NCBI GenBank assembly: GCA_021163205.1
Contig: JAGGXF010000006.1
Location: 1 to 42,666, forward strand
Origin: Candidatus Aenigmatarchaeota archaeon
GTDB taxonomy: Archaea > Aenigmatarchaeota > Aenigmatarchaeia > GW2011-AR5 > JAGGXF01
Direction of reading: 5' to 3'
DNA length: 42,666 nt
Both the position numbers and the translations under genes were made by a program. Position 1 is the stretch's first letter; each line of letters begins with the position of its first letter. The notes under the pieces were generated by a model. That model did no database searches. It was given only the letters and a program-made list of their open reading frames with translations, and was not told where the DNA came from. Positions 986 through 19,443 of the stretch are shown piece by piece.

Positions 986-1162
986 TGCGCCCGGGCAGAT
1001 GTTCCTCATTGTTTCCGACAAAACAATGATTTTGAACTGCCGATCTCTGCCGTTTCTTCCACGCTTTTTTGCACGTGATTTTTGCGTGTGTGAAGGCAGC
1101 GTCTTTGTTTTTCACCGCTGTTTCAAACAGCGACGAAATCTAACCAACTAGACCACAGGCGC
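986..1162 (-). tRNA. tRNA-Val(CAC) interrupted by three introns (about 36, 36 and 31 nt); CCA not encoded
   Basis: Spliced reading gives a 74-nt cloverleaf: GCGCCTG TG GTCT AGTTGGTTA GGAC G CTGCC TTCACAC GGCAG AGATC GGCAG TTCAAAT CTGCC CGGGCGC A. Introns lie at about 1104-1139 (D arm), 1053-1088 (anticodon loop) and 1000-1030 (T loop), each boundary +/-1 nt. Confidence 0.88.
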
Positions 1163-1240
1163 ATGTCGATATATTTTTTCTCTGATAAACTATAAAATGT
1201 TTTAACAAGCTATTATAGACAAGCATGAAGCAATATTCCT

Positions 1241-19283: not shown

Positions 19284-19443
19284 GCCTCCGTAGCTCAGTT
19301 TGGATAGAGCACTTGCCTCCTAACTGTCCCTGACAGTACTCATGACGATATGGAGGTGAGATGATTCTTGCTTCGGCAGGAATATGATCAAAACTTCATT
19401 CGGAGATAGCAAGGGGTCGCGGGTTCGAATCCCGCCGGGGGTG
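19284..19443 (+). tRNA. tRNA-Arg(CCU) with an 85-nt intron (19323-19407)
   Basis: GCCTCCG...CGGGGGT acceptor; T arm GCGGG-TTCGAAT-CCCGC; anticodon stem CTTGC/GCAAG; BHB with 4-bp central helix CTCC/GGAG and 3-nt bulges TAA and ATA. Confidence 0.88.

Follow-up and report, generated by a model that had tools for sequence, protein, structure and literature searches.

Structure of the interrupted gene

A 177-nt segment on the minus strand of the genome of an uncultured Aenigmatarchaeota archaeon (window positions 1162-986) is very likely a genuine, and probably functional, tRNA-Val(CAC) gene, as judged from sequence comparison and predicted folding, and its precursor would carry three introns of the bulge-helix-bulge (BHB) type. 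The window is the whole 42,666-nt stretch of DNA that was analyzed; it is one contig (C32) of a draft genome (G000) of 811 kb that is about 91% complete. The gene consists of four exons and three introns, all on the minus strand. Exon 1 (1140-1162; tRNA positions 1-22) provides the 5′ strands of the acceptor and D stems together with the D loop, and its sequence is the same in a second species of the genus, represented by genome G001. A 36-nt intron in the D arm (1104-1139), best placed at 22/23 with 21/22 possible, separates it from exon 2 (1089-1103; positions 23-37), which supplies the 3′ strand of the D stem, the 5′ strand of the anticodon stem and the anticodon CAC. After a second 36-nt intron, located in the anticodon loop at 37/38 (1053-1088), exon 3 (1031-1052; positions 38-59) runs from the 3′ strand of the anticodon stem through the variable loop and the 5′ strand of the T stem to TTCAAA, where a 31-nt intron at 59/60 (1000-1030) divides the T loop. 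Exon 4 (986-999) contains U60, the 3′ strands of the T and acceptor stems and the discriminator A73, and the CCA end is not encoded. All three introns were placed by folding and comparison, and their boundaries, as inferred from sequence, are uncertain by one or two bases. A putative TATA-box-like element, TTTATAG (1190-1196, minus strand), recognized from upstream sequences, precedes the mature 5′ end by about 28-34 nt and sits within an upstream block that is conserved with G001.

In silico excision of 36, 36 and 31 nt yields a spliced tRNA-Val(CAC) of 74 nt with a complete cloverleaf and a usable anticodon. With each of the three boundary variants tried, ARAGORN calls the spliced product tRNA-Val(cac), and with the 21/22 variant ViennaRNA returns the exact cloverleaf. 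The first-pass annotation had proposed this isotype, anticodon and strand, as well as introns of about these lengths in the D arm, anticodon loop and T loop, and all of these proposals are borne out. Its suspicion that simple tRNA finders may miss the gene was also correct, as the unspliced gene gave no match with ARAGORN on the window and none with Rfam at gathering thresholds.

The predicted fold of the full precursor has an energy of -65.0 kcal/mol, compared with -46.4 ± 3.8 kcal/mol for shuffled sequences (z = -4.87; 0 of 200 shuffles as good). This minimum-energy fold contains all three intron hairpins simultaneously, and because they can coexist, no order of splicing is forced. We also searched with a home-made finder that allows for introns at four places, namely the D arm, the anticodon loop, the variable loop and the T loop. 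The gene scored 18.8, and the maximum for the reversed genome was 14.9. Twelve second-order Markov genomes mostly gave scores of 16.6 or less, and one of them reached 18.8. The score is thus supportive rather than decisive, and was rejected as proof by itself. The result from this one simulated genome would fit a chance pattern, in which a permissive three-intron search met tRNA-like arms by accident. Such an accident is vanishingly improbable in view of the stability of the fold, the ARAGORN call after splicing and the compensatory changes described below, and it is refuted by the existence of orthologues in two genomes, one of them in synteny.

Intron boundaries and splicing motifs

The junctions lie in BHB motifs that are near strict for the T intron, have a 3-bp center plus a mismatch for the D intron, and are relaxed for the anticodon intron. 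The T intron forms an hBHBh′ structure with the central helix UUCA/GGAA, whose last pair, an A-G mismatch, is the only departure from the strict form, and with the inner helix UCAUUGUUU/AAACAAUGA. Its site is assigned to 59/60 because the 5′ bulge is AA↓A and the 3′ bulge is CA↓U (arrows mark the cuts), which fits the 2↓1 bulge cut rule. The same motif (UUCA/UGAA with bulges AA↓N and AA↓U) recurs in other tRNAs.

In the D intron, the inner helix UUUCGUCGCUGUU/AACAGCGGUGAAA is unbroken through tandem G-U pairs, and the central helix consists of the three pairs GUU/AAC (G19-U20-U20a/AAC) with a G18-A mismatch. A 5′ bulge of AG↓A and a 3′ bulge of AA↓G place this intron at 22/23. The Val(GAC) genes of G000 and G001 have the same D-intron architecture, and applying the 22/23 layout to Val(GAC) restores GGCTAT-GACG, which is what Val(GAC) and Val(TAC) have in their uninterrupted D arms in G002, a genome of a related (sister) genus in the same family. 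Those two G002 genes, which have no D intron, read GGTTATGACG, again consistent with 22/23. Placement at 19/20 was rejected because the D loop would be too short. Placement at 21/22 is possible, but it is a poorer fit to the cut rule and to the Val D arms that lack an intron in G002.

The anticodon intron has a central helix of UUC/GAA, a 3 × 3 internal loop and the inner helix CACGC/GCGTG, and cutting at 37/38 or at 36/37 gives an identical product. These placements correct the BHB-like contexts that had been suggested for the junctions, and the one at the anticodon intron holds only in relaxed form.

Conservation and probable gain of introns

The decisive evidence that the gene is genuine is not its finder score but its conservation in G001 (the metagenome-assembled genome Candidatus Aenigmatarchaeota archaeon GMC4.metabat2.263), which belongs to the same genus and has a UMP kinase of 80% identity. 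The G001 copy is 82% identical and has each of the three introns at the matching site. Exon bases agree at 73 of 74 positions, whereas nucleotide identity across the genomes is 75.7% over 547 kb aligned. In the T intron of G001 the inner helix is UCGUUGUUGC/GCAACAGCGA, with compensatory changes relative to G000; between CATTGTTT/AAACAATG in G000 and CGTTGTTGC/GCAACAGCG in G001, at least two pairs are changed on both sides (A-U to G-C and U-A to G-C) and the UUC/GAA core is kept. The anticodon intron of G001 is shortened to 23 nt, with CAT/ATG as its inner helix.

The same comparison bears on the possibility of a pseudogene or a gene in decay, in which insertions have left a one-time tRNA-Val unable to give a mature product and GTG codons are read by Val(TAC). 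Val(TAC) does exist and the BHB of the anticodon intron is relaxed, but the near-perfect conservation of exons between genomes that differ at about 24% of bases, the compensatory changes in the T-intron helix and the conserved upstream block all argue for a maintained gene. Moreover, all other resolved tRNA genes of G000 are built alike, and a second Val(CAC), which had been proposed as a check on the assignment, was looked for across the 811-kb, roughly 91% complete draft and none was found. We thus consider decay very improbable and retain the interpretation as a functional gene. The Val anticodons resolved in G000 are CAC, GAC and TAC, with one gene each, and GTG accounts for about 19% of Val codons in long open reading frames (ORFs). 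Since Val(TAC) could read GTG by wobble, the Val(CAC) gene is not strictly essential.

The D intron of Val(CAC) is identical in G000 and G001 at all 36 bases, and the other two introns differ. At 75.7% genome identity, this raises the possibility that the intron is more than a mere spacer and has an additional role, perhaps as a stable RNA after excision. The Ala(GGC) and Ile(GAT) D introns likewise show 100% identity between the two genomes. However, no Rfam family is matched at the gathering threshold and no box C/D motif is apparent by eye, and D introns may instead be constrained by their long helix as a substrate of the splicing endonuclease EndA or homogenized by gene conversion. An additional function for this intron is thus unlikely.

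The tRNA-Val(CAC) gene of G002 is in synteny, adjoining the UMP kinase gene, and its T loop is uninterrupted (TTCGATT). It has a D intron before G18-G19, not after position 22, which indicates that the D introns of G002 and of the G000 and G001 genes occupy sites that are not homologous. Because the T loop is interrupted in two species and intact in the sister genus, the T-loop intron is most simply viewed as a gain in the lineage of this genus, with loss in G002 as the alternative.

Interrupted tRNAs throughout the genome

Similar introns appear to have invaded the whole tRNA set. Gene and intron counts for the three genomes come from the home-made finder applied to draft genomes, and for G000 the genes counted are those above the decoy level. 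By this measure, all 31 resolved tRNA genes of G000 are interrupted, with about 48 introns (1.55 per gene), and three introns are present in Val(CAC), in Asn(GTT) and in a presumed Ile(TAT) gene. In addition, G000 has about ten other T arms that are preceded by tRNA-like sequence and also appear to be interrupted (decoys, 0). There are 29 tRNA genes with about 44 introns in G001, and 20 with about 34 introns in G002, where one gene is uninterrupted. Interruption on this scale accounts for the small number of tRNAs that standard tools recover here. For example, Rfam matches only 6-16 tRNAs in each tested genome of this order, but 30-40 in G032 and G037, two other members of the class.

Sequence similarity between introns indicates copying from one tRNA to another and turnover inside the genus. 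In G001, Gly(CCC) and Arg(CCT) have T introns with 96% identity over 77 nt, and the Arg(CCT) gene of G000 has no T intron.

Several other genes of the set have unusual features. The tRNA-Arg(CCT) gene of G000 lies in the window (19284-19443, plus strand) and has an 85-nt anticodon-loop intron; its G001 orthologue has an extra T-loop intron of 84 nt, the one nearly identical to the Gly(CCC) T intron. Two Pro tRNA genes, one with the anticodon TGG and the other with AGG, are adjacent in G000 (C6:29901-30103) and in G001 (C5:10633-10929), and their D introns are exchanged between the two genomes. An A34, as in the anticodon AGG, is unusual for archaea. The tRNA read as Ile(UAU) (G000 C18:27362-27550, G001 C27:16419-16581, G002 C12:61886-62059) has three introns in the two species of the genus and two in G002, and ATA is the most frequent Ile codon in long ORFs. 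In the Cys(GCA) gene of G002 (C12:27301-27479), the anticodon intron resembles a tandem duplication, with two near-identical copies of the intron unit.

The splicing endonuclease

One EndA gene was found in G000, on contig C18 (L009:1474-2076, minus strand). It encodes about 200 amino acids with one N and one C EndA domain, and the sequence is nearest to the catalytic chains of N. equitans and M. jannaschii. A hidden second subunit was rejected, as a phylum-specific profile found nothing above noise among the ORFs of G000, G001 and G002. The first-pass annotation expected non-canonical junctions usually to go together with a broad-specificity endonuclease. The single short enzyme found is neither of the two broad-specificity types. 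It has no insertion at YYGK, the place of the crenarchaea-specific loop of the (alpha-beta)2 type, where the aligned PDB chain 2cv8 has 11 residues, and no EndA of the three-unit epsilon2 type (about 390 amino acids) was found in the G000 genome. Three-unit epsilon-like EndAs of 400-455 amino acids were found only in other families of the class, either alone or beside a short EndA. Across the phylum, epsilon-like genes of 410-455 amino acids are patchy (G006 C50, G011 C2, G032 C2 and G039 C72; L231-L234), and those of G006 and G011, the two that were fully aligned, contain an SVRK motif.

The most unusual part of the case is the active site of the short EndA, which lacks the full Tyr-His-Lys triad of the classical catalytic subunit. 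The Tyr and His are kept, and the position of the catalytic Lys (K156 of M. jannaschii when residues are counted along the aligned chain) is occupied by Ala in all 49 motif-matching short EndAs of the phylum. Ala at this position abolishes cleavage by the A. fulgidus and ARMAN-2 enzymes (PMC12397907). The short form is nonetheless probably an active splicing enzyme, because most genomes have only this form. An Arg or Lys that follows the lost Lys is unlikely to be the substitute, because 6 of 49 sequences have Thr, His or Ser there. All 49 share an invariant GPK loop, which lies between the catalytic Tyr and the His, and its lysine might perhaps have taken over from the lost one. The insertion between Tyr and His is not the crenarchaea-specific loop, which sits elsewhere (PMC6379350, PMC12397907). 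We tentatively propose, as a possibility that we would not yet favor, that Aenigmatarchaeota splice a tRNA set that ranks among the most interrupted on record with a single short EndA in which the GPK-loop lysine, adjacent to the catalytic residues Tyr and His, replaces the lost catalytic lysine. If true, this would be a new answer to how catalysis and a broad substrate range are combined in a one-gene (alpha4-like) EndA, and tRNA introns would still be moving between genes within a genus.

Maturation of tRNA-Val(CAC) could then proceed as follows. The precursor would be transcribed from its own promoter, EndA would cut six junctions at BHB motifs that can form side by side, and the exons would be joined by RtcB, for which the genome has a ligase gene (E = 2.6e-172). 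CCA would be added after splicing, and the mature 74-mer would decode GUG. Counting against this scheme are the weak BHB of the anticodon intron, the mismatch in the central helix of the T intron, the absence of the catalytic lysine from EndA and a draft genome that is about 91% complete.

Relation to known systems

Three-intron tRNAs and near-universal tRNA introns are already known elsewhere. Our search of the literature (open-licence papers) found no description of such tRNA interruption, or of such an EndA, in Aenigmatarchaeota. The present findings extend dense interruption of tRNAs at multiple sites to this DPANN phylum, place the probable gain of a T-loop intron by species comparison, and point to a splicing endonuclease without a lysine that was thought to be indispensable.

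The association of multi-intron tRNAs mainly with Thermoproteales, as first assumed for this gene, is correct in that they are known there, but they are not confined to that order. ARMAN-1/2, Korarchaeum and N. equitans are among the other archaea for which they have been reported (PMC4033280), and in the Asgard Atabeyarchaeia and Freyarchaeia introns interrupt 92-95% of tRNA genes (PMC11291895). Three-intron examples from Thermoproteales are pre-tRNA-Glu(UUC) of Pyrobaculum calidifontis and pre-tRNA-Pro(UGG) of P. islandicum (PMC4390854), which, like tRNA-Val(CAC), combine canonical and non-canonical sites in three BHB introns per gene. The density of about 1.5 introns per tRNA gene is also similar, with 71 introns in 46 genes of P. 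calidifontis and, by our home-made finder, about 48 in 31 here; Thermoproteales have 0.84 introns per gene and archaea in general 0.21 (PMC8450103). However, our host belongs to DPANN, the tRNA is a different one, and the endonuclease is a short single-gene EndA rather than (alpha-beta)2, with no crenarchaea-specific loop at the usual place.

As in Atabeyarchaeia and Freyarchaeia, nearly all tRNA genes are interrupted, often at several non-canonical sites, although those archaea belong to an unrelated phylum and have much larger genomes (2.8-3.6 Mb). ARMAN-1/2 (Micrarchaeota) resemble G000 as small-genome DPANN archaea with non-canonical introns (PMC4033280, PMC12397907), but they have an epsilon2 endonuclease, whereas no epsilon-type EndA was found in G000 and some of its sister families have one. 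Finally, near-identical introns in different tRNAs, such as those in the T loops of Gly(CCC) and Arg(CCT) in G001, recall the intron transposition described for Thermoproteales, but the present cases come from Aenigmatarchaeota and from a single genus.
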